Positions 1,801 to 64,000 of a stretch of DNA of 64,000 nt are shown here, piece after piece. The stretch spans positions 1 through 64,000 of the forward strand of contig JAIXUE010000044.1 in NCBI GenBank assembly GCA_027483605.1, given 5' to 3'. Under the pieces are notes generated by a model. It saw only the letters and a program-made list of their open reading frames with translations, was not told where the DNA came from and ran no database searches. The stretch is from Cryomorphaceae bacterium (GTDB taxonomy: Bacteria > Bacteroidota > Bacteroidia > Flavobacteriales_D > Crocinitomicaceae). The translations under genes and the position numbers were made by a program. Numbering within the stretch: position 1 is the first letter of the stretch; each line of letters opens with the position of its first letter.

Positions 1801-2737
1801 GATTCCTGAATTTGGTTTCAAATTTTTGCCGTAGTGTAGCACTCAATTCAGACCAATTTGCGGGTTTTTGGTGCTTCCAGCGCTTATGAGACCAGAGCCA
1901 ACGCGCAGGGTTATCTATGATTTGTTGTTCTAGTTTTTGGACATGTAGTTGAGTTAGTTCTTGGTATGTGAGGTTTTTTGAATCCTTCACTAATACTTCA
2001 AGTTTTACATTGTAATTACCTCTATTTGAATTTGATAAACTTACAAAAACAACTGCGCAGTCGTATTTGTTGGCCATATATTCAGGCCCAAAAATGACGG
2101 GTGTATTTTGATGGAGGAATGGAATCCATAAGCACTCCGTTGGTGAACTGGGCGCTTGATCGGCCAAGACAAGAACAATAGGGTTCTTGGCTTCAAATGC
2201 TTCTTGGTAATTTTGTGCATGAACAACTTTCAAACCAAAACGCTCTCGTCTTTCGGTTAGATTTTGATTCCAAAATGGGTGACTCAGCGGCATGCCGATA
2301 CCGTAACTCGGTTGTTTGAACCATGAAGCCTGAGCCGTGATGAGCCACTCCCAGTTGTTGTAGTGGCCAGCAACTAACAGAATAGGTTTGTTTAAGGCTT
2401 TGATTTCTTCCAAGATTTCAGGATTCTCAAGCTGCATGCGCTGCAACAATTGTTTTTTAGAAATACTGAGGTTTTTTACGGATTCGACCAGTAGGTCTGA
2501 GAAATAGCGGTAAAAATCTTTTCTGATTTGTTGTCTTTCTTCAACTGATAAATTTGGAAAGGCGATCTGCAAGTTTTGGTCGATGACTCGCTTGCGATAT
2601 GGAAGCAGCGTGCAAAAGAGGGCAAACAAGAAATCTGCCAAAACATATAGTATCCTTAGCGGAAGATAGGATAGGGGTAGGACCAATCCGTAATAGAGCA
2701 AAGCGCCACTTAAAATTTGTATTTGTCTTGCCACCAT
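1793..2737 (-). CDS. Lysophospholipid/lipid A acyltransferase, HtrB/LpxL family
   Basis: The 314-aa protein has the family's usual length. An N-terminal membrane segment (about 11-45) is followed by the catalytic Hx4E motif GHYNNWEW (His125, Glu130). Family members add secondary acyl chains to lipid A at the inner membrane, or transfer to related lipids; the exact acceptor cannot be read from sequence. The start overlaps the end of rarA by 28 nt, and its own end overlaps the Asp-box gene by 8 nt, so translation is probably coupled across the three genes. Confidence 0.85.
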   Translation of the reverse strand: MVARQIQILSGALLYYGLVLPLSYLPLRILYVLADFLFALFCTLLPYRKRVIDQNLQIAFPNLSVEERQQIRKDFYRYFSDLLVESVKNLSISKKQLLQRMQLENPEILEEIKALNKPILLVAGHYNNWEWLITAQASWFKQPSYGIGMPLSHPFWNQNLTERRERFGLKVVHAQNYQEAFEAKNPIVLVLADQAPSSPTECLWIPFLHQNTPVIFGPEYMANKYDCAVVFVSLSNSNRGNYNVKLEVLVKDSKNLTYQELTQLHVQKLEQQIIDNPARWLWSHKRWKHQKPANWSELSATLRQKFETKFRNHA

Positions 2738-3987
2738 TTTTTGATGAGTTGTGCGATTTCTTGTTCTTTAGAGCTGCTGCCGGGATGGAAAAAGTTGGTG
2801 CCAACGAGTTGTTCAGGCAAGAACTCTTGGGCATAAAAATTGCCCGGATGATCATGGCTGTATTGGTAGCCATCACCGTAACCAAGTTCTTTCATGAGTT
2901 TGGTTGGGGAATTGCGCAGCGCAAGGGGCACACCGAGGTTGCCAGTTTGCTGGACAATCTGCTGGGCTTTATTGATGGCCATGTAGGCTGCGTTTCCTTT
3001 GGGTGAACTCGCTAAATATAACGTGCATTCGCTCAAGATGATCCTGGATTCTGGCCAGCCAACGTTTTCGACGGCCTGAAAACACGCGTTGGCAAGTAAC
3101 AAGGCATTGGGGTTGGCCAAGCCGATGTCTTCGGCTGCCAAAATAACCAAGCGCCGCGCAATGAATTTGGGGTCTTCACCGCCTTCTACCATTCTGGCTA
3201 GCCAATAAACTGCTGCATTGGGGTCTGATCCCCTGACAGATTTGATAAAAGCCGAAATGATGTCGTAATGCTGTTCGCCGTCTTTATCGTAGCTAGCCAG
3301 GCTTTGTTGTGCATTGGACAAAACAACTTCATCTGTAATTTCAATTTCGGTCTGGCCTTGAAAAGTGCCAATGATGATTTCAAAAACATTGAGCAGTTTG
3401 CGGGCATCTCCGCCCGAAATTCGAAGCAGGGCATTGGTTTCAAGTAAGGAGATCTGCTTTTTTTGAAGTTGTAGGTCTTCCTTAATAGCCCGTTCGAGTA
3501 GGGTGATGAGATCGTTTTTCGTGTGCTGCTCAAGGGTGTATACCTGACACCGTGACAACAAAGCCGAAATGACTTCAAATGATGGATTTTCAGTGGTGGC
3601 GCCGATGAGCGTAACAACCCCTTTTTCTACTGCTCCAAGCAGTGAATCTTGCTGTGCTTTAGAAAAACGATGGATTTCATCGATAAATAGGATGCTGCCT
3701 TGAGGGCTGAACATACCGCCACCTTGAACTTTAGCAATGACCTCCCGTACATCCTTGACACCGCTTGAAATAGCAGAAAGCGTATGAATGGGTCGATTGA
3801 GGTGTTGGGCAATGAGTTGAGCGAGTGTCGTTTTGCCTACGCCTGGCGGGCCCCAAAAAATCATAGAGGGAATCACGTCAGCGTCTAATGCTCTACGCAA
3901 AGAAGCGTTCGATGCCAATAAATGCTGTTGACCAATATATTGATCTAGCGTCTTGGGGCGCATGCGTTCTGCGAGCGGAGCATTCAT
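2710..3987 (-). CDS. rarA: Replication-associated recombination protein A (AAA+ ATPase)
   Basis: The protein is 425 aa. Walker A GPPGVGKTT lies at 46-54 and Walker B FIDEIHRF near 100-107, followed by sensor motifs and the long C-terminal region of the RarA/MgsA/WRNIP1 family. These proteins act at stalled replication forks, related to clamp-loader AAA+ ATPases. It is the first gene of a leftward three-gene operon. A -7 box TATCTTTG on the minus strand ends 4 nt before the ATG, so the mRNA may be leaderless. It is divergent from the cysteine desulfurase gene across about 50 nt. Confidence 0.95.
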   Translation of the reverse strand: MNAPLAERMRPKTLDQYIGQQHLLASNASLRRALDADVIPSMIFWGPPGVGKTTLAQLIAQHLNRPIHTLSAISSGVKDVREVIAKVQGGGMFSPQGSILFIDEIHRFSKAQQDSLLGAVEKGVVTLIGATTENPSFEVISALLSRCQVYTLEQHTKNDLITLLERAIKEDLQLQKKQISLLETNALLRISGGDARKLLNVFEIIIGTFQGQTEIEITDEVVLSNAQQSLASYDKDGEQHYDIISAFIKSVRGSDPNAAVYWLARMVEGGEDPKFIARRLVILAAEDIGLANPNALLLANACFQAVENVGWPESRIILSECTLYLASSPKGNAAYMAINKAQQIVQQTGNLGVPLALRNSPTKLMKELGYGDGYQYSHDHPGNFYAQEFLPEQLVGTNFFHPGSSSKEQEIAQLIKKWWQDKYKF

Positions 3988-3991
3988 TACT

Positions 3992-3999
3992 CAAAGATA
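3992..3999 (-). promoter_or_regulatory. -7 box of rarA, predicted leaderless
   Basis: TATCTTTG on the minus strand matches the Bacteroidota -7 consensus TAnnTTTG. Only AGTA separates it from the ATG, placing the transcription start at or next to the start codon. I see no convincing TTG at the -33 position. Confidence 0.55.
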
Positions 4000-4039: not shown

Positions 4040-5176
4040 ATGAACGTCTATCTTGACAACGCCGCCACCACACCTGTTGCGCCAGAAGTGGTAGAAGCCA
4101 TGACCCCAGTATTGTATCATACTTTTGGGAATCCATCCTCCACACACGCTTTTGGTCGCCAAGCCAAAGCCCTTTTAGAAAATTCAAGACGCAGTATAGC
4201 GCAAGCGCTGCATTGTGCGCCATCCGAAATCATATTCACCTCTGGGGGCACAGAAGCCGACAATATGGCTTTACACGCAGCCGTTACGCAGCTTGGTGTC
4301 ACGCGCATTATCACAAGCGCAATTGAACACCATGCCGTTGGTCATACAGCCGCTGCCATAAAAGATTCAAATGGCACTGATGTTGTTCACCTTTCACTTG
4401 ATTCAAAAGGCAATGTCAATTTGCAAGAGCTTGAAGCCTATTTAAAAGACGGAACACCCTCATTGGTTTCATTAATGCATGCCAACAATGAAATCGCAAC
4501 GCTGCTACCTTTAGCTGAAGTTGCGCAATTGTGTCGACACTACGGAGCTTATTTTCATTCTGACACCGTACAAACAATGGGGCATTATCAATTTGATTTG
4601 TCCGTACTTGACATCGATTTCATTACATGTGCAGCCCACAAATTTCATGGGCCAAAAGGCATCGGATTTTTATATGTCAATAAAAAAACGCGTGTCAATC
4701 CGCTCATTCATGGTGGGTCGCAGGAGCGCGGTTTGCGCGGAGGCACTGAAAATATTGCTGGTGTAGTAGGTTTGGCAAAAGCCATTGAATTGGCCTATAC
4801 AGATTTAGAGGAACATCAGCAACATGTTTGGGGGCTGAAAAACTACATGATGACCCGTTTGCAAGAAATGTTTGCAGACGTGCGTTTTCATGGTGAAACC
4901 AGTTATGAAAAAGCTTTGTATACTGTCCTTAATGTTTGTTTGCCAGCAACTGCCAAAGCAGGTTTGTTGTTGTTTACCCTAGACCTGAAAGGTGTTGCGG
5001 TGAGCGGTGGCTCAGCCTGTACTTCAGGTGCTACCAAGGGCTCTCATGTACTAGAAGGAATTGGTGCCGATATGAGTCGTCCGAATGCGCGCTTCTCTTT
5101 TTCGCGTTACACCACTAAAGAAGAAATTGATTACGCGCTACAACAACTCCAAGAAGTGTATCAAAAGAATTTGTAA
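4040..5176 (+). CDS. Cysteine desulfurase (NifS/IscS-like aminotransferase class V)
   Basis: The 378-aa protein has the PLP-binding lysine in AAHKFHGPKG (Lys201), the substrate-region HSDTVQT motif, and the catalytic loop SGGSACTSG (Cys327). The enzyme removes sulfur from cysteine to form a persulfide that feeds Fe-S cluster and thio-cofactor synthesis. NifS versus IscS cannot be separated safely; no iscU or iscR lies nearby. It heads a rightward run, with the glycosyltransferase beginning 9 nt downstream. That link is probably positional rather than functional. Confidence 0.9.
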   Translation: MNVYLDNAATTPVAPEVVEAMTPVLYHTFGNPSSTHAFGRQAKALLENSRRSIAQALHCAPSEIIFTSGGTEADNMALHAAVTQLGVTRIITSAIEHHAVGHTAAAIKDSNGTDVVHLSLDSKGNVNLQELEAYLKDGTPSLVSLMHANNEIATLLPLAEVAQLCRHYGAYFHSDTVQTMGHYQFDLSVLDIDFITCAAHKFHGPKGIGFLYVNKKTRVNPLIHGGSQERGLRGGTENIAGVVGLAKAIELAYTDLEEHQQHVWGLKNYMMTRLQEMFADVRFHGETSYEKALYTVLNVCLPATAKAGLLLFTLDLKGVAVSGGSACTSGATKGSHVLEGIGADMSRPNARFSFSRYTTKEEIDYALQQLQEVYQKNL

Positions 5177-7595: not shown

Positions 7596-8391
7596 AGTCA
7601 GTAAGTTACTTAATGCAATAAGGCTGATCTTACAAAGACCAGCACTCTTAAACCTTGTGCTCAAGGATGAAGCGGTCTTGAAAGCCAACTTTCAAAAAGA
7701 ATTTCCTGGGCTACAATTGCAAGAAATGGACATGTTTTCTTGGTCTGAATCTGCAGCACTGCGCATTACGCCATATGCATTTCTTTCGGGTTCTTCAATG
7801 GTGACTGATTTTGCGTTATTGCAATTGTTGTGTCGTCGATATAAAGTAGCAACCTATTTAGAGATCGGGACTTGGCGCGGCGAAAGCGTGGCTAATGTGG
7901 CGCCGTTTGTTAGCGAAGCATTTACCTTAAATTTGCCTGATGAAACGCTGCGTCAAATGGGTCAAAATGAAGCTTACATCAAATCACATCGCTTCTTTTC
8001 TAGCCAACTGAATAATGTAACGCATCTTTTTGGCGATTCAGCCACCTTTGACTGGACACCATACCAGCAAAAATGCGATCTCATTTTCATTGATGGAGAC
8101 CACTCCACAGAGGCTGTTCAAAGAGATACCCAAACGGCGCTGCAATTGCGCAAATCAGAAAATTCTATATTGGTTTGGCACGACGCGAAAGCAGACGGAG
8201 AGTATCCTCGATACGAGGTGCTTTTAGGTATTTACCGCGCTTTACCTAAAGAGCTACACAGTAAACTATATTTGGTCAAGCATGCGTTGTGTGCGGTTTA
8301 TTTGCCAGATGGGGCAGAGGCAAGTCCTATTGCGCTCAATGCCTTGCCCACTCGCGCTTTTGAAATCGAACTGAAAAATATAAATCTTTAG
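7588..8391 (+). CDS. Class I SAM-dependent methyltransferase (Methyltransf_24 type)
   Basis: The 267-aa protein has motif I as YLEIGTWRGES and a later acidic segment DLIFIDGDHSTEAV, characteristic of the Methyltransf_24/cephalosporin-hydroxylase-like group. In glycan clusters such enzymes often methylate sugars or polysaccharide ends. This is inferred from its position directly after the flippase. The 3' end overlaps the convergent asnB gene by 4 nt with no terminator between them. Confidence 0.8.
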   Translation: MNKVSKLLNAIRLILQRPALLNLVLKDEAVLKANFQKEFPGLQLQEMDMFSWSESAALRITPYAFLSGSSMVTDFALLQLLCRRYKVATYLEIGTWRGESVANVAPFVSEAFTLNLPDETLRQMGQNEAYIKSHRFFSSQLNNVTHLFGDSATFDWTPYQQKCDLIFIDGDHSTEAVQRDTQTALQLRKSENSILVWHDAKADGEYPRYEVLLGIYRALPKELHSKLYLVKHALCAVYLPDGAEASPIALNALPTRAFEIELKNINL

Positions 8392-22553: not shown

Positions 22554-22586
22554 TTTGCTGTTTGCAAAAGGCAATGTTTAATTTTG
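22554..22586 (+). promoter_or_regulatory. Promoter of the Ppx/GppA gene, predicted leaderless
   Basis: TTTG at 22554-22557, a 21-nt spacer, then TAATTTTG at 22579-22586. Only TCAT separates the -7 box from the ATG at 22591, so transcription should begin at or beside the start codon. Confidence 0.6.
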
Positions 22587-22590
22587 TCAT

Positions 22591-23472
22591 ATGAAATTTG
22601 CTGCCATAGATATCGGAACCAATGCCGCAAGGCTCCTGATTGCCAATGTGCAACGAACCGAAGGGCGCATTCATTTTCAAAAATTGGCCTATTATCGCGT
22701 GCCGCTCCGTTTAGGAGAAGAAGTATTCGACAAAGGGAAAATCAGTGCACAAAAAGCCCTTCAGTTTCAGCAAACCATTCAAGCATTCAGTTTGTTGGCC
22801 ACTACACACGAGGTGCAGGCGCTCAGAGCAGTAGCCACTTCAGCGATGAGAGAAGCGAGTAATAGCAAGAAAATAGCGAAGCAAATTTTTCAAGAAACCG
22901 GCATTGAAATCGATGTCATTTCCGGTGACGAAGAAGCGCAACTTATTTTCAATTCTTTTGAGCTTTTGCAATTGCAAAAGCAACAACAATTTGTGGTGGT
23001 AGACGTTGGTGGTGGCAGTACAGAAATCAGCATTTTTGAACATGGTCAGAAAGTAGCCGCTCGGTCTTTTGAACTCGGCACCATTCGCATTTTAAAAGGC
23101 AAAACAAATCCACAAAGTTGGTCTGATTTTTCAGCCTGGATTCAAGATCATGTTCGCCTTGACGAAGCGCATACCATTTTTGGTACGGGTGGAAACATCA
23201 ATCGGGCGCTCAAGATGCTGGCGCCTAAGCAAAAAGAAACCTTAACACTTGCTTCTTTAGTGAGTCTGCACAGTACCTTGTCTGCACTATCGCCAGAGGA
23301 GCGCTGCATCCAATACCAACTCAAACCAGACCGAGCTGACGTCATTGTTCCGGCCCTGAAAATTTATATCACAGCCCTAGAGGCTCTGGGGCAGCAAACG
23401 CTTGTAGTACCCAAAATCGGTTTGTCTGATGGCGTGATCTACCAATTATTTCTTCAAAATACCCAAGTTTAA
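22591..23472 (+). CDS. Ppx/GppA family exopolyphosphatase-type phosphatase
   Basis: The 293-aa protein is a single ASKHA catalytic module. The phosphate-binding loops are AAIDIGTNAARLLIANV at the start and VVDVGGGSTEISIF in the middle. It lacks the C-terminal HD-like domain of E. coli Ppx, as is common in Bacteroidota. It hydrolyses polyphosphate and/or pppGpp. The leaderless-type promoter lies directly upstream. hisS follows 2 nt after its stop, so the two are probably an operon. Confidence 0.88.
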   Translation: MKFAAIDIGTNAARLLIANVQRTEGRIHFQKLAYYRVPLRLGEEVFDKGKISAQKALQFQQTIQAFSLLATTHEVQALRAVATSAMREASNSKKIAKQIFQETGIEIDVISGDEEAQLIFNSFELLQLQKQQQFVVVDVGGGSTEISIFEHGQKVAARSFELGTIRILKGKTNPQSWSDFSAWIQDHVRLDEAHTIFGTGGNINRALKMLAPKQKETLTLASLVSLHSTLSALSPEERCIQYQLKPDRADVIVPALKIYITALEALGQQTLVVPKIGLSDGVIYQLFLQNTQV

Positions 23473-27940: not shown

Positions 27941-30022
27941 TCAATAAGAACCGTGGTATCTTCTCAAAAACCATTCCGCAATGAGCAAGACACTGAGCAG
28001 TAAAAACAGCAGGAGGTAGTCCAGTAAGGGATCGAACTGATGGGTTTCTGTTCTCAGCGCAACTAGATCTTCGCTTTTTTCGAGCTGTGAGATCAGCTTT
28101 TGGTAGTCTTTGATGTCAAAAACTTTGGCGTCTGTCTGGGCTGCTAATTGATAAAGTGTGCTGTGTCGGGCAGCTGATTCCAGTTGTTCAAGGTCGATAT
28201 CTTCGACGATAAAAGCGCCAGTCTTGAGGTATTTTTTTTGATTGTGGACGGTGCTCGCTTTCCAATAGTATCGACCTGGTTTCAGGCGTCCAAGTTGCTG
28301 TTGATAAAATGCACCTTTTGTTGCAAAACTGCCTTTACGTGTTTTTTTGTGTTCGTAATCGAGTTCCCAACTGATTTTTGGGCTTGAAATGGCTTGCATG
28401 GCTTCGTTATAGAAGCTGGCATTGAGAATGCAGTTGTCAGCAGTGCTGAGTTTTTTGGGGGCTTGTACGCGCAAGCCGTTACCTTCTTTTTTGACCAGTA
28501 AATATGAACAGATTTCACCTGCAAATGCATCAAACGCTTCGTGATTTTGTTTTTTAAGGTAACAAACCATTCGCCAACGCCACAAACCTTCCCCAAGCAA
28601 TACGGCATGTCTTTGTTGGTCTTTTTCATTAAAACTGAGCAAGGGGCTGTCTTTTTGCAGCTTGCCAATGCGCTGCGTGAATAAAATTTGTGTACCAGCA
28701 TTGGCTTTCGCTTCTCCAAAACGCTTGGTAAGTGGGGGTAGAAAAGGGGTGAGGCTTAGCCACTCTGGATGCGGTGCGTAGAGCGCAAAGCTGGTGTTGG
28801 CTTGCGCTTGAATTTCCTCAAGTTGCTGGCGCAGTTCGAGTTGCAAACCAAGTTGTAATTTTGCAGCAGTTTGCTGATCGGTTTGCGAGCCAAGTATATA
28901 CCAAACGGGAATTTTTTTAGTTTGTGCTGTTTCAAAGAGGCTTTTGGCAAAGTTTTTTCCTGGGTCGTGCCAGACAATTAGATCAATACTTTTGAGAGGA
29001 ATTTCTTTGAGCTGAGCAGCATGCGCAACGACTACTTCGTAATTTTCATTTCCTGACAACGCTTGCTGTAAGGCGGCAATGTCTGGGTGAGGTGCATGGC
29101 TGTATAAGAGAATCTTGCTGCGACTGTCAATGACTTCGATGTAAATAGTTCGGCTATTGTTTTGATAAGAAAACTCACCTTTTCTTTTCTCGATAACGAC
29201 TTTGTACTCGTGAATTCCAGGTTTTTTGGCCTTGAGTTCAAAGGAAAGAGTGGCTTGAGCACTTCTTTGTTTATTGAATTGCGTGTTTTGAGTCGCTACT
29301 TTTTTACCATCTTCATACAAGCTGACACGGATGTTTTGGCCGGGAAAACGCTGGGCTTCTAAATCGACTTCTAAGGTGAAGTTGTTGTTTAAAAATGCAA
29401 GTTCATTATAGGCAATGTTGGTTAGGACAAGATCTCTTTTAAGAGTGGTATCTCCGACGGCCAAGCTGTAAACCGCAGTAAGTGGTAGATTTTCTGCGTT
29501 GTACATGGGATGAGCCCCCGTATTGTAGTTGCCGTCGGACACCAGCACCACCGCACCTAAATTACGGTTTAAAAATTGGTTTGCAGCTTGTTCAAAAGGC
29601 AGCTCCATGTTGGTTTGATCCGCCGTAAAGCCTTTGTTTGGTACTTGAAGGTTTTTTCCGAAATCCCAGGTTTGGAGTTCAAAACGAGCACCTAGTTTTT
29701 CATTTACTTTATTTTGATACGCTGCGATTTGTTTTTCTAAAGCGGCACTTTCCTTGTAGTTGTTCATCGAGGAAGAGCGGTCAATGAGCGTCAGGATAAC
29801 TGGTTTTTCAGTTTCAAAATGCGTTTGCTCTAAAAGCAGGCCTAAAAGCAGTATTCCTAGTAAAGAAAAGCTCGAGGTCCTAAGAATTAAAAGTATGTAC
29901 TTAAGGTATTTAGATTTGGTTTTTATCCAGGTTTCATTGCGGTAAAAAAGGTGACTCAATGCGGCCGAAAGCAAAACAATCGGCAGGATCCACCATAAAG
30001 AATAAGAAGATAGCAAATGCAT
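27941..30022 (-). CDS. Membrane protein with VWA-like domain
   Basis: The protein is 693 aa from the ATG at 30022 (MHLLSSYSLWW). The five-codon longer start at 30037 lies upstream of the -7 box. Two N-terminal membrane segments precede a von Willebrand A-like region beginning ILTLIDRSSSMNNY (a MIDAS-like DxSxS) with a later VLVSDGNYNTGA. A long beta-rich periplasmic region follows, with a final membrane helix near LLDYLLLFLLLSVLLIAEWF. Such proteins are common and poorly characterised in Bacteroidota and resemble BatA/BatB topology. It is the first gene of the operon with YiiX and GNAT. Confidence 0.78.
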   Translation of the reverse strand: MHLLSSYSLWWILPIVLLSAALSHLFYRNETWIKTKSKYLKYILLILRTSSFSLLGILLLGLLLEQTHFETEKPVILTLIDRSSSMNNYKESAALEKQIAAYQNKVNEKLGARFELQTWDFGKNLQVPNKGFTADQTNMELPFEQAANQFLNRNLGAVVLVSDGNYNTGAHPMYNAENLPLTAVYSLAVGDTTLKRDLVLTNIAYNELAFLNNNFTLEVDLEAQRFPGQNIRVSLYEDGKKVATQNTQFNKQRSAQATLSFELKAKKPGIHEYKVVIEKRKGEFSYQNNSRTIYIEVIDSRSKILLYSHAPHPDIAALQQALSGNENYEVVVAHAAQLKEIPLKSIDLIVWHDPGKNFAKSLFETAQTKKIPVWYILGSQTDQQTAAKLQLGLQLELRQQLEEIQAQANTSFALYAPHPEWLSLTPFLPPLTKRFGEAKANAGTQILFTQRIGKLQKDSPLLSFNEKDQQRHAVLLGEGLWRWRMVCYLKKQNHEAFDAFAGEICSYLLVKKEGNGLRVQAPKKLSTADNCILNASFYNEAMQAISSPKISWELDYEHKKTRKGSFATKGAFYQQQLGRLKPGRYYWKASTVHNQKKYLKTGAFIVEDIDLEQLESAARHSTLYQLAAQTDAKVFDIKDYQKLISQLEKSEDLVALRTETHQFDPLLDYLLLFLLLSVLLIAEWFLRRYHGSY

Positions 30023-30026
30023 AAGC

Positions 30027-30034
30027 CAAAAATA
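30027..30034 (-). promoter_or_regulatory. -7 box of the VWA membrane protein gene, predicted leaderless
   Basis: TATTTTTG on the minus strand is followed by GCTT and then the ATG at 30022. The exact 4-nt spacing matches that at rarA and ppx/gppA, and supports the shorter start. Confidence 0.55.
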
Positions 30035-30048
30035 CATACATTTTTACT

Positions 30049-37996: not shown

Positions 37997-38004
37997 TATT
38001 TTTA
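37997..38004 (+). promoter_or_regulatory. -7-like box of the S9 peptidase gene, predicted leaderless
   Basis: TATTTTTA, one base from TAnnTTTG, is followed by GCGA and the ATG at 38009. This is the same 4-nt spacing seen at rarA, ppx/gppA and the VWA gene. Confidence 0.45.
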
Positions 38005-38008
38005 GCGA

Positions 38009-40258
38009 ATGAAATTTACCTTGTTCATCTCTTTTGTTTGTTGTTTGGCTGTTTATGGCCGGGCACAGCTTCAACTTGATCAAATCATGAAAGGCCCAGG
38101 TTTTGTGGGCGCTTTGCCTGAGGCCCCTGAGTGGTCTGTTGATGGCAAGCTTATCTATTATTGGAAAAAGCACCCAGATTCCTTACAGAAAACATATTAT
38201 TGCCATGACCTCAGTCAAAAGCAAACTAAAGTTTTGAGCAAAAATGCTTGGCAAGACCGTTGGGTTTGGACGCCAGGTGCTGGGCAACTCAATTACATTC
38301 GACTTCACGACGAAAAATTGCAATGTCTGGATGTCCAAACGCAGCAAGTGAAGTCCTATGCCTTGTTTACCAATTCAATTTGGAATTTACAAGTTCAAAA
38401 CAACATCCAAACTGTAGTTTTTCAGCAGGGTCAGCGTTTGTTTGTATTTGACCTTCAAAATGGCCTGGCAAAAAATTTAGTAAGCTACCAGAAAGCAGCA
38501 TCTGAAAAGCGTTCGTCCGACGGCTTGTCTCAAACAGAACTTGAATTTTTTGAAAGTGTTCGCAAGCAAGAACTACAAAGCACCAAATTAGATTTACCTA
38601 GCGTTAAATTCATTTCATTTGACCAGCAAGGTGCGCTGCAAGTGGACCCAACGGCCCGTTTTGTATTGCTCAAGGAAGAGCAACAGCCCGAAGAAACAGC
38701 GACTGAAGTGCCACATTTCATATCAGCTGATGCGCATGTTTACAACGAAAAGGCGCGTTCAAAAGTGATGAATGAAGAACCAACCCAACACTTGTATTTA
38801 CACGACTTAGTTGCTGACTCTTTAGTTCAAATCGATTTCTCGGGGCTCACTCAAATGAATACTGAAAACCGTGCGCTGATCATTCATCCGGCTATTTTTG
38901 CCAAAACCAAACCTCTGGCTTTACTCGATATCCGTAGCGCCGACAACAAAGACCGCTGGATAGTTTGCCTTGAACTTGAAACAAGCCAAATCAAAGAATT
39001 GGAGCATCAACACGACAGCGCATGGATAGGCGGGCCAGGGATTTCTTCTTGGAACTTCGAAACAGGTACACTCGGTTGGCTCCGAGATGCGCAAACCATC
39101 TATTTTCAGTCAGAAGCATCGGGTTATGCTCACTTGTATACCTTGGATCTTCAAACCAAAACCAAGATTGCACTCACAAGCGGCAATTATGAGGTCCATC
39201 AGGTGCTCTTGTCAAAGGATAGCAATTCTTTTTACCTGAACACCAATATGTATCATCCTGGGGCGCGTAGTTTTCACAAGTTGGATCTTAAAAAGCTAGA
39301 GATTAAATCCCTGCTTTCAGAACAAGGGGCCTACGAAGTGCAACTTTCACCCGATGAAAAACAATTGGCTTATCGTTTCAGTACCTCTACCAATCCTTGG
39401 GAAATCTATACTTGTTCGCTCAAAAATCCAAAAGATCAAGTTCAACTAACTACTTCAACTACAGAAATATTCAGCACTTATCCGTGGCAAAAACCCGAAG
39501 TCTTGAGCTTTAAGGGCTCTGATGGCGTTTCTGTTTATGCCCGTCTCTATTCACCAAAAGCCGAATTTAAAAATGGCGCTGCTGTCTTATTTGTTCACGG
39601 TGCCGGTTACTTACAAAATGCGCATCATTACTGGAGTTATTACCAGCGAGAGTTTATGTTTCATCAAATGCTCCTCGATAAAGGCTACACCGTACTAGAT
39701 GTCGATTACCGCGCAAGCGAGGGCTATGGCCGCAACTACCGCACCGCCATTTACCGCCACATGGGCGGCCGCGACTTACAAGATTTTGTCGATGCCAAAC
39801 AATTTTTGGTTTCGCAATATGGTATAGATAGCAATAGAGTAGGGATTTATGGAGGTTCCTATGGTGGTTTCATTACTTTAATGGGACTTTTTACCGAGCC
39901 AGGTACTTTCGCTTGTGGTGCAGCCCTACGCTCAGTTACCGATTGGGCACATTACAACCACGAATACACCACGAACATTTTGAATACACCAGCTGCAGAT
40001 CCAGAAGCTTACCGTCAAAGTTCTCCAATTTACTTTGCTGATGGCCTTGCAGATCCGCTTTTGATTCTGCACGGCATGATCGACGATAACGTGCAGTTCC
40101 AAGACGTCGTGCGCCTCAATCAGCGCTTAATTGAGCTCGGTAAAAAAGATTGGTGGATGGCTTTGTACCCAGTAGAGCGCCATGGTTTTGAGTACACGTC
40201 ATCTTGGACAGACGAATACCGTCGCATTTTCGAATTATTTGAAACCTATTTAAAGTAA
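38009..40258 (+). CDS. S9-family (dipeptidyl peptidase IV-like) serine peptidase
   Basis: The 749-aa protein has the signal peptide MKFTLFISFVCCLAVYGRAQ. An eight-bladed-type beta-propeller region covers about 30-480, then an alpha/beta-hydrolase domain. The triad is Ser617 in GGSYGG, Asp692 in GMIDDNV, and His725 in RHGFEY. The GGSYGGF signature fits DPP IV/prolyl tripeptidyl peptidases. It trims proline-containing peptides outside the inner membrane. The GNAT gene begins 6 nt after its stop. Confidence 0.92.
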   Translation: MKFTLFISFVCCLAVYGRAQLQLDQIMKGPGFVGALPEAPEWSVDGKLIYYWKKHPDSLQKTYYCHDLSQKQTKVLSKNAWQDRWVWTPGAGQLNYIRLHDEKLQCLDVQTQQVKSYALFTNSIWNLQVQNNIQTVVFQQGQRLFVFDLQNGLAKNLVSYQKAASEKRSSDGLSQTELEFFESVRKQELQSTKLDLPSVKFISFDQQGALQVDPTARFVLLKEEQQPEETATEVPHFISADAHVYNEKARSKVMNEEPTQHLYLHDLVADSLVQIDFSGLTQMNTENRALIIHPAIFAKTKPLALLDIRSADNKDRWIVCLELETSQIKELEHQHDSAWIGGPGISSWNFETGTLGWLRDAQTIYFQSEASGYAHLYTLDLQTKTKIALTSGNYEVHQVLLSKDSNSFYLNTNMYHPGARSFHKLDLKKLEIKSLLSEQGAYEVQLSPDEKQLAYRFSTSTNPWEIYTCSLKNPKDQVQLTTSTTEIFSTYPWQKPEVLSFKGSDGVSVYARLYSPKAEFKNGAAVLFVHGAGYLQNAHHYWSYYQREFMFHQMLLDKGYTVLDVDYRASEGYGRNYRTAIYRHMGGRDLQDFVDAKQFLVSQYGIDSNRVGIYGGSYGGFITLMGLFTEPGTFACGAALRSVTDWAHYNHEYTTNILNTPAADPEAYRQSSPIYFADGLADPLLILHGMIDDNVQFQDVVRLNQRLIELGKKDWWMALYPVERHGFEYTSSWTDEYRRIFELFETYLK

Positions 40259-48569: not shown

Positions 48570-51353
48570 ATGACGCCGATGAGAGTTTATTTTCTGTATT
48601 CAGTTATTATTTTCGCCTTCATTTTAAACAGTTTACATGCCCAAACATTTGTTTTTGGCCAACTTACTGGGTCTCCAAACATGAGCACTAGCGGTTGGAA
48701 TTTAAACGGAAATGCCACTATCGGAGATACACCAGGCGACGTCGATAATTTCCCAAACGAGCTCATCCTAACCAACGCCACCACAAGCCAATCGGGCGGT
48801 GTCTTCTACAATACACCCATAAATCTTGGTGTTTGTCAGCAATGGACTGTAGAATTTGAATACCGCATTTGGGGTGGGAACGCCGCCGACGGCTTGGCAT
48901 TTTGTTTCATTCCTACACCTCCAACAGGTTTTGTAGTCGGAGGAGGGATCGGAATTCCGGGCACTGCAAACGGACTTAAAGTGGTGATTGATACCTATGA
49001 TAATTGCAGTCAGGGAGGTACCAATCCTGAAATTCAAATTTTCAATGGAGTTGGTTACAACGAATGCTTGCCTGGTACTCCTAAAATTCAAAACTCAGGC
49101 GGATCCTTGAACTATCTGAGAAATTCAAATTACCAACATGTTAAAATTATATACAATAATGGTGTCATTTCCGTTTTTGTCAATAATGTACAGCTCTTAA
49201 CCGCAAATTTTCTAATTACCTATACAGGATATATGGGGTTTACAGCTGGTACCGGAGCGCTTTTCGACCAGCACTCTATTCGCAATGTCATCATTTACAC
49301 CAATCAAGCCCAATCAAATGCAGGGGTAGATGTTACAACTTGTTCCAATACGCCGGTTACTATCGGCACCGCTCCCAATCCGAACAATAGTTATAGTTGG
49401 TCGCCTGCTACAGGTTTATCGGCCACGAATGTGGCCAACCCAGTAGTAACCTTGCCCAATACCACCGGTGCGCCCATCACCCAAACCTATACGGTCACCA
49501 CTACTATGGCCAATTCACCTGGGATGTGCCCCACAACCGATCAAATTGTTGTGACTGTTCAGCCTCAGTTTTCACAAACGCTCAATCAGGTTACTTGCTC
49601 TGGTCAATATTCCTTCAATGGACAAGTTTTGACACAGTCGGGAGTTTATCAAGACACCCTCAATACGGTGCATGGTTGCGATTCGATCATTACACTCAAT
49701 CTTACTATTGGCAATACGCCTGCAGCCAACGCTGGGCAGAATATTTCCGTTTGTTCTGGTGAAACTGGTAATTTAGGCTTGGCCGCTCAAGCAGGTCTGA
49801 GTTACAGTTGGTCGCCAGCAACCGGTCTAAGCGCGAGTAATGTGGCGAATCCGACTGTTGTCTTGAATAATATCAATACCGGATGGCCCATCGTTCAAAC
49901 CTATACACTTACCGTTACCGATAATGGCAGTGCTTTAGGTTGCACCACAACTGATCAAGTAGATGTCACGGTCTTGCCAAGTTATCAAATTCAAGTGATC
50001 GATACGCTCTGCGATGGTGGTCCCTTCACGTACAATGGTCAAACATATTCACAAACGGGAATCTACATAGATTCTTCTCAAACTGCATTTGGTTGCGATT
50101 CGGTCACCACCATCAATATCTCCATTTCGCAAGAACCCGTTTTTGCGCTCAACGACACACTCATTTGTTTTGGGGGGCAGGCATCTTTGGTTCCGCAAAG
50201 CAATTTCAGCAATGTAAGCTACGCATGGCTCGCGCAAAATACCACTATTCCAACGGTAAGCCCTGCATTATTTGTCAGTCCACAGCAAACTATTTCTTAT
50301 GTGGTTACAGCAGTAGATAACTTCTTGTGTACCCACACTGAGAACTTCACCATTACCGTTGCACCGTTGCCAGTAATGACTTTACTTGCCAATCAGATGA
50401 CACTTTGTGCTTACGATACGCTTACGCTAACAGCAACGGGGGCGCTTTCTTATGATTGGAGTGGCCCTGTGGCTTTTGCGGCCAGTGCGGCCACTCAAAA
50501 TGTTTTCAATCCTCAAAGTGGCAATTACCAAGTAATCGGAACAACCTTAGATGGCTGCCAAGATAGTACATCGTTAGCTATTACGGTCCATCCGGCACCT
50601 CAATTACAAATCACCCCCGATCAAGGAATTTGTCCGGGTTTTGCTGCCACAATTGGGGTTTCAGGTGCACTGAACTATACCTGGACGGACGTTCAATTAT
50701 CAGGAGCAAATATCGTTGTCACACCTCTTGTTACAACAACTTATACAGTCACCGGGTCAAATCAATATAACTGCATCGATACCGCACAAACTACTGTAAC
50801 GGTTTATGCGCAACCAAGTGCAGCTTTTACAGCAAGTCCTCTGATCCTGACCAGCGATAATCCGACTGTTAACTTTACATCTAATGCACAGAATGCGGCC
50901 ACAAGTATTTGGGACTTTGGGGATGGTAGCACTGCTGAAAACGGCCAGAATGAATTTACCTATACGTATCCTTTTGTAGAAGATCAAACCTATACCGTTA
51001 CACTTTTTGTGGAGAGTGCCGAGGGCTGTACTGATCAAAGTCAAGTCCAAATTCAGATCAAAGGTGGAATTATTTACTATGTTCCCAACACCTTTACGCC
51101 CGATGGAGATGCCCTTAACAACCTCTTTACGCCTGTATTTACCTCGGGTTTTGACCCACAATCTTTCCACATGACCATCTATAATAGATGGGGAGAGCCT
51201 GTTTTTGAGTCCTATGATGCGAATTCGGGTTGGGATGGCAAAATTGATATTTACGCTGCACCAGAAGGTACCTACACGTACCTCATCGATTTCAAGACGC
51301 TCAATACCGATCAAATCATGCGCGTCAGTGGGCATGTGCTGCTCATGAGGTAA
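48570..51353 (+). CDS. Lectin-type, PKD-containing T9SS type-B surface protein
   Basis: The 927-aa protein has a signal peptide ending near LNSLHAQ; an alternative ATG at 48579 is possible. Residues about 25-245 look like a bacterial L-type lectin domain (WTVEFEYRIWGGNAADGLAF, GLKVVIDTYDNC). Two repeat units follow, each with NAG..C, then YSWSPATGLSA.NVANP, then a CxG..FNGQ..GCDSI segment (about 249-380 and 386-515). A PKD domain (IWDFGDGSTAENGQN) begins near 750. A gliding-motility/type-B T9SS C-terminal domain starts near 835 (VPNTFTPDGDALNN, YNRWGEPVFES, ending GHVLLMR). It is probably a secreted, surface-attached glycan-binding adhesin. Confidence 0.9.
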   Translation: MTPMRVYFLYSVIIFAFILNSLHAQTFVFGQLTGSPNMSTSGWNLNGNATIGDTPGDVDNFPNELILTNATTSQSGGVFYNTPINLGVCQQWTVEFEYRIWGGNAADGLAFCFIPTPPTGFVVGGGIGIPGTANGLKVVIDTYDNCSQGGTNPEIQIFNGVGYNECLPGTPKIQNSGGSLNYLRNSNYQHVKIIYNNGVISVFVNNVQLLTANFLITYTGYMGFTAGTGALFDQHSIRNVIIYTNQAQSNAGVDVTTCSNTPVTIGTAPNPNNSYSWSPATGLSATNVANPVVTLPNTTGAPITQTYTVTTTMANSPGMCPTTDQIVVTVQPQFSQTLNQVTCSGQYSFNGQVLTQSGVYQDTLNTVHGCDSIITLNLTIGNTPAANAGQNISVCSGETGNLGLAAQAGLSYSWSPATGLSASNVANPTVVLNNINTGWPIVQTYTLTVTDNGSALGCTTTDQVDVTVLPSYQIQVIDTLCDGGPFTYNGQTYSQTGIYIDSSQTAFGCDSVTTINISISQEPVFALNDTLICFGGQASLVPQSNFSNVSYAWLAQNTTIPTVSPALFVSPQQTISYVVTAVDNFLCTHTENFTITVAPLPVMTLLANQMTLCAYDTLTLTATGALSYDWSGPVAFAASAATQNVFNPQSGNYQVIGTTLDGCQDSTSLAITVHPAPQLQITPDQGICPGFAATIGVSGALNYTWTDVQLSGANIVVTPLVTTTYTVTGSNQYNCIDTAQTTVTVYAQPSAAFTASPLILTSDNPTVNFTSNAQNAATSIWDFGDGSTAENGQNEFTYTYPFVEDQTYTVTLFVESAEGCTDQSQVQIQIKGGIIYYVPNTFTPDGDALNNLFTPVFTSGFDPQSFHMTIYNRWGEPVFESYDANSGWDGKIDIYAAPEGTYTYLIDFKTLNTDQIMRVSGHVLLMR
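49318..50110 (+). repeat. Tandem duplicated module in the lectin-type T9SS protein
   Basis: Two copies of about 137 residues (DNA about 49318-49710 and 49728-50110). Shared residues include NAG at the start, SWSPATGLSA, NVANP, TTDQ, FNGQ/YNGQ, and GCDS near the end. They diverge at the DNA level, so the duplication is old. Confidence 0.75.
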
Positions 51354-63969: not shown

Positions 63970-63977
63970 TATTTTTG
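63970..63977 (+). promoter_or_regulatory. -7 box of the gene entering the right edge, predicted leaderless
   Basis: TATTTTTG, perfect match, followed by CGCT and an ATG at 63982. The 4-nt spacing repeats that of rarA, ppx/gppA and the VWA gene. It is divergent from the TPR operon box 24 nt away. Confidence 0.5.
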
Positions 63978-63981
63978 CGCT

Positions 63982-64000
63982 ATGTTTCAACGCGATTGCT
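63982..64000 (+). CDS. Start of a gene leaving the window
   Basis: Only MFQRDC is visible before the window ends. The upstream -7 box with 4-nt spacing makes the ATG credible. The product cannot be identified from six residues. Confidence 0.4.

Follow-up and report, generated by a model that had tools for sequence, protein, structure and literature searches.

Bacteroidota initiate translation without Shine-Dalgarno pairing, and the bases that directly precede the start codon modulate initiation (PMC6847099); how their ribosomes choose start codons is still being worked out. Leaderless transcription from promoters of the sigma-ABfr type has been reported, at low frequency, for Flavobacterium and Bacteroides. 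In F. psychrophilum, leaderless transcripts make up 5.5% of the mRNAs with mapped starts and come from sigma-A promoters carrying TAnnTTTG (PMC9723704). In B. thetaiotaomicron, 3.7% of 5' UTRs are shorter than 10 nt (PMC7366714), and about 13% of F. johnsoniae leaders measure 10 nt or less (PMC6847099). Start mapping in F. psychrophilum puts the box of sigma-A promoters at -12 to -5 (PMC9723704), and 4 or 5 nt lie between box and transcription start in F. johnsoniae (PMC6847099). A survey based on Pribnow-like boxes, the only kind it sees, found leaderless genes in one of 37 Bacteroidetes/Chlorobi genomes (PMC3160421).

We analyzed a stretch of 64,000 nt (the window) from a freshwater Bacteroidota genome, a 2.39-Mb draft in 50 contigs whose closest named relatives are metagenome-assembled Crocinitomicaceae and Flavobacteriales. 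An earlier note on this DNA had pointed to four genes with a box exactly 4 nt before the ATG and to a fifth, encoding an S9 peptidase, with a variant box at the same spacing, and had proposed that their mRNAs are leaderless. All four TANNTTTG-N4-ATG sites and the fifth site were located as described (Table 1). The pattern TANNTTTG-N4-ATG occurs seven times in the window against 1.16 expected, and none of 100 shuffles reached seven. Four of these matches are gene starts. The other three resemble chance occurrences and were rejected as gene starts: the match at 7928 (+) lies out of frame within a gene, and those at 49475 and 49889 (-) lie inside a gene and have the TAGG form shunned by real boxes.

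The start codons of ppx/gppA and of the gene at 63982 are unambiguous, with no in-frame start further upstream, and for rarA and the S9 peptidase the ATG at 4 nt is the earliest possible start. The gene at 27941-30022 has a second in-frame ATG 15 nt upstream of the proposed start; its longest open reading frame begins at 30037 and overlaps the promoter box. If this gene is leaderless, longest-ORF annotation puts its start five codons too early, an example of how the signature can correct start annotation. The name 'VWA' given to its product in the earlier note found no support in Pfam or NCBIfam, where the protein has no family hit.

Table 1. Box sites and associated genes in the 64,000-nt window.
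Feature	Sequence	Position	Strand	Remarks
rarA -7 box	TATCTTTG-AGTA-ATG	3985..3999	-	4 nt ahead of rarA start; identical in same-genus G041
rarA CDS		2710-3987	-	Pfam MgsA_C
ppx/gppA -7 box	TAATTTTG	22579..22586	+	at 4 or 5 nt in 10/10 nearest relatives; box through ATG, 22579..22593
ppx/gppA spacer, 4 nt	TCAT	22587..22590	+	next base is the predicted transcription start
ppx/gppA CDS, predicted leaderless (ATG = +1)		22591..23472	+	Pfam Ppx-GppA 4.5e-41
Box of 693-aa protein gene (27941-30022)	TATTTTTG-GCTT-ATG	30020..30034	-	G041 retains box and spacing
S9 peptidase variant box	TATTTTTA-GCGA-ATG	37997..38011	+	CDS 38009-40258, Pfam-supported; TAHHTTTA enriched at 4 nt
Box of TonB-dependent receptor-like gene	TATTTTTG-CGCT-ATG	63970..63984	+	820 aa, start 63982, extends beyond window

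Gene-level statistics were taken from stretches totalling 1.21 of the 2.39 Mb, including the window, in which a simple coding-potential finder called 1081 genes. Because the choice of stretches leaned to contigs with listed matches (94 of 130 whole-genome matches in 51% of the genome), rates in this sample are about 1.4-fold too high; genome-wide estimates rest on whole-genome counts, which are free of the sampling choice. A histogram of box-to-ATG distance, suggested in the earlier note, has a single-base peak at 4 nt. TAHHTTTG precedes called starts by 3, 4 and 5 nt in 9, 62 and 10 cases, respectively, and of 896 ATG starts, 57 have the 4-nt spacing, where dinucleotide shuffles of each upstream region yield a mean of 0.49 and no more than 3. 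In raw distances from TAHHTTTG to any ATG (1.21 Mb), 4 nt is the sole outlier, with 80 matches compared with about 19 at most other spacings, next to a broad leadered hump at 14-21 nt; 65 of the 80 are in frame and no more than 200 nt from a called start. Neither GTG (12) nor TTG (16) has a spike at 4 nt in the same 1.21 Mb, both counts being background.

Across the whole genome, the pattern occurs 108 times at 4 nt; a control spacing of 40 nt gives 25 matches and the reversed pattern 15. The excess corresponds to about 80-95 genes, or about 4% of some 2100 genes, a gene number extrapolated from the sample. In the sample, 262 genes have a strict box no more than 60 nt from the start; in 62 of them (24%) the spacing is 4 nt, a share nearer 18% after correction for the sampling bias. 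The excess at 4 nt is limited to TAHHTTTG and two single-mismatch forms, TAHHTTTA (15 vs 0.42) and TAHHTTCG (4 vs 0.14), and since these forms are also enriched, the strict-box count is a lower bound. The earlier expectation that the spacing exceeds chance was thus borne out both in the window and at the sampled starts.

A fixed distance to the ATG could also be translational, because Bacteroidota lack Shine-Dalgarno pairing and tune initiation by bases near the start (PMC6847099); the motif would then be a non-Shine-Dalgarno ribosome-binding element in the mRNA and no promoter at all. We regard this as very unlikely, since the box is identical to the -7 element published for sigma-ABfr and behaves like one. 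Of 65 TAnnTTTG boxes with the 4-nt spacing, 62 match TAHHTTTG, and G is missing from both free positions, as in leadered boxes. Both classes share an AT-rich extension that lies 4-6 nt before the TA, with 80-96% A/T at box-relative positions -14 to -12 and similar values in leadered boxes, and the box together with this extension is also found 14-28 nt from starts. In the region 20-30 nt upstream of the box, where a TTTG/TTG element near -33 was sought, neither class has a clear base preference; as mapped F. johnsoniae promoters, too, show this element far less clearly (PMC6847099), its lack does not separate members from non-members. The 4-nt class is, moreover, concentrated in first genes, with 45 of 54 being operon-first-like or divergent versus 337 of 824 others (p=8e-10), and its genes generally have no other promoter upstream: a second strict box 12-80 nt upstream is present in 1 of 57, versus 161 of 839 other genes. 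We conclude that the 4-nt box, which has the features of leadered promoters, is very probably a promoter element and not a ribosome signal.

Comparison with a second genome of the same genus, G041, bears on the remaining alternatives. There, 19 of 20 orthologues with aligned starts hold the box at exactly 4 nt, and the single exception, TAACTTTA, differs by one mismatch. Substitutions affect 1 of 120 fixed box positions, 2 of 40 free positions, 22 of 80 spacer positions and 156 of 960 upstream bases, and no spacer indels occur in the 20 pairs, a pattern which indicates that the box and its spacing are under purifying selection. In leadered genes, the exact spacing is kept in 51 of 68 and some box is still present in 61 of 68. 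An AT-rich genome contains many copies of TAnnTTTG, some of which will lie 4 nt before an ATG, as the three random-looking matches in the window illustrate; as an explanation of the class, however, chance is practically negligible in view of 57 sites observed at starts for 0.49 expected and of their retention in the sister genome. A further alternative is that start codons are miscalled, so that ribosomes pass over the ATG at 4 nt and start at a codon further downstream, on an mRNA with a short leader. Some ORFs do have further in-frame ATGs (rarA at +24, the S9 peptidase at +78), but the one-base spike is tied to ATG only and most raw matches are in frame near a called start, the ATG is unchanged in 20 of 20 sister pairs while spacer letters vary, and in ppx/gppA no further ATG follows in the next 150 nt. 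Miscalling as a general explanation is therefore most improbable.

Beyond the genus, conservation differs among sites. Retention of the ppx/gppA box in the ten nearest relatives (L061-L070) extends down to 63% protein identity, and beyond them the box lies mostly at 8-9 nt or is absent. The 4-nt boxes of rarA and the S9 peptidase were not seen outside the genus among the genomes compared, and the 27941-30022 family uses other boxes (TAnnTTCG) 4-11 nt ahead of the ATG, from which it follows that individual sites turn over quickly. The TAnnTTCG variant recurs in these positions family-wide (L169-L182 upstream regions) and is mildly enriched genome-wide. Within the window it is also present (TATCTTCG, TAAATTCG) 16-19 nt before the genes at 4040 (+) and 30076 (+), which are divergent from rarA and 27941-30022; both copies are followed by TGGC.

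The promoter reading leads to a simple model. The present analysis shows what the box is, that its spacing is exact and specific to ATG, that it precedes first genes, and that box and spacing are under purifying selection; the placement of +1 at the fifth base after the box comes from the literature; from these we infer the RNA 5' ends and their translation. The boxes would be -7 elements recognized by sigma-ABfr, the housekeeping sigma factor of Bacteroidota, and transcription from a box exactly 4 nt before the ATG would begin on the A of the start codon. The resulting mRNAs would have no 5' leader, and ribosomes would have to load at a 5'-terminal AUG. The geometry assumed in the earlier note, with transcription starting about 4 nt past the box, matches the mapped starts of two Flavobacterium species (PMC9723704, PMC6847099), and given a box at -12 to -5, the 4-nt spacing puts the predicted +1 on the A of ATG and leaderless mRNAs are thus predicted for roughly 80-95 genes (about 4%). 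Together, the 4-nt excess and the published geometry support the leaderless reading as a strong prediction: we consider it very probable that these sigma-ABfr -7 boxes start transcription at the A of the ATG. We further predict that the leaderless genes are mostly first in their transcription units.

Bacterial start bases are expected to follow a pyrimidine. Of the 57 4-nt genes, 50 (88%) have a pyrimidine at -1, versus 507 of 839 (60%) others (p=1.5e-5), which is supporting, although not decisive, for a start at the A of ATG. In leadered promoters, the pyrimidine-purine step at box+4/+5 is not raised (0.22), so the start base is fixed with the help of the literature rather than independently of it. 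Should transcription from some promoters begin 5 nt past the box, the transcript would miss the A of AUG. By folding, the first 40 nt of 4-nt-gene coding sequences are not less structured than those of other genes.

The genes with a 4-nt box, named from Pfam domains and length, include rarA, ppx, uvrC, sua5, RF1 (L036:14960-16039, +), RF2 (L054:617-1699, -), chorismate synthase, purK, gpsA and nadC. The RF2 gene appears to be in frame throughout, without a programmed frameshift.

To place the class within the phylum, densities per Mb were calculated as the count minus a reversed-pattern control for some 370 Bacteroidota genomes. Seven genomes of the host genus have an excess of 29-43 per Mb, and the eight nearest relatives one of 35-48 per Mb; the next highest value in the phylum sample, as read from the tables, is about 25 per Mb (G115), and one member of the order (G312) is near 30 per Mb. 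In others, such as Marinifilum (about 2 per Mb) and most of family f17, the excess is near zero. The class thus varies by degrees across the phylum and peaks in the host lineage, and the host genus and its close relatives seem to have the highest density among the genomes counted. One public record, CAMDFN010000011.1, is titled Chryseobacterium gleum and carries sequence of the host's Crocinitomicaceae-like genus; it is probably mislabelled. A bolder reading, which we offer tentatively and hold to be somewhat doubtful, is that this lineage moved a large fixed housekeeping set (both class-I release factors, uvrC, chorismate synthase, purK, gpsA and nadC) to leaderless expression, reaching the highest leaderless share in Bacteroidota, possibly with an adaptation of the ribosome or initiation factors.

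With a base-exact promoter-ATG signature, the leaderless genes of uncultured members of the phylum can be catalogued without data other than the sequence, and the signature points to lineages suited for testing leaderless translation. What is new here is this in silico signature, its conservation, its gene set and its lineage peak, for which we found no earlier report in the literature searched, most subscription journals being outside its scope. The Bacteroidetes/Chlorobi survey, limited to Pribnow-like boxes (PMC3160421), would miss the 4-nt class. F. psychrophilum has what is predicted for the host, a leaderless class and the -7 box at -12 to -5 of +1; its class was measured by start mapping, and the host density appears higher in silico, the two measures not being identical (PMC9723704). 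F. johnsoniae shares with the host the TAHHTTTG consensus without G at the free positions and the 4-5 nt to the start. Unlike what is predicted for the host set, its authors hold leaderless translation not to be the rule, and the part of their report drawn on here describes no 4-nt-to-ATG peak (PMC6847099). The 'TA-led' leaderless genes of Actinobacteria and Deinococcus-Thermus have, as in the host, a promoter element at a fixed distance before the ATG, but that element is a Pribnow-type TANNNT about 12 bp upstream (PMC3160421).
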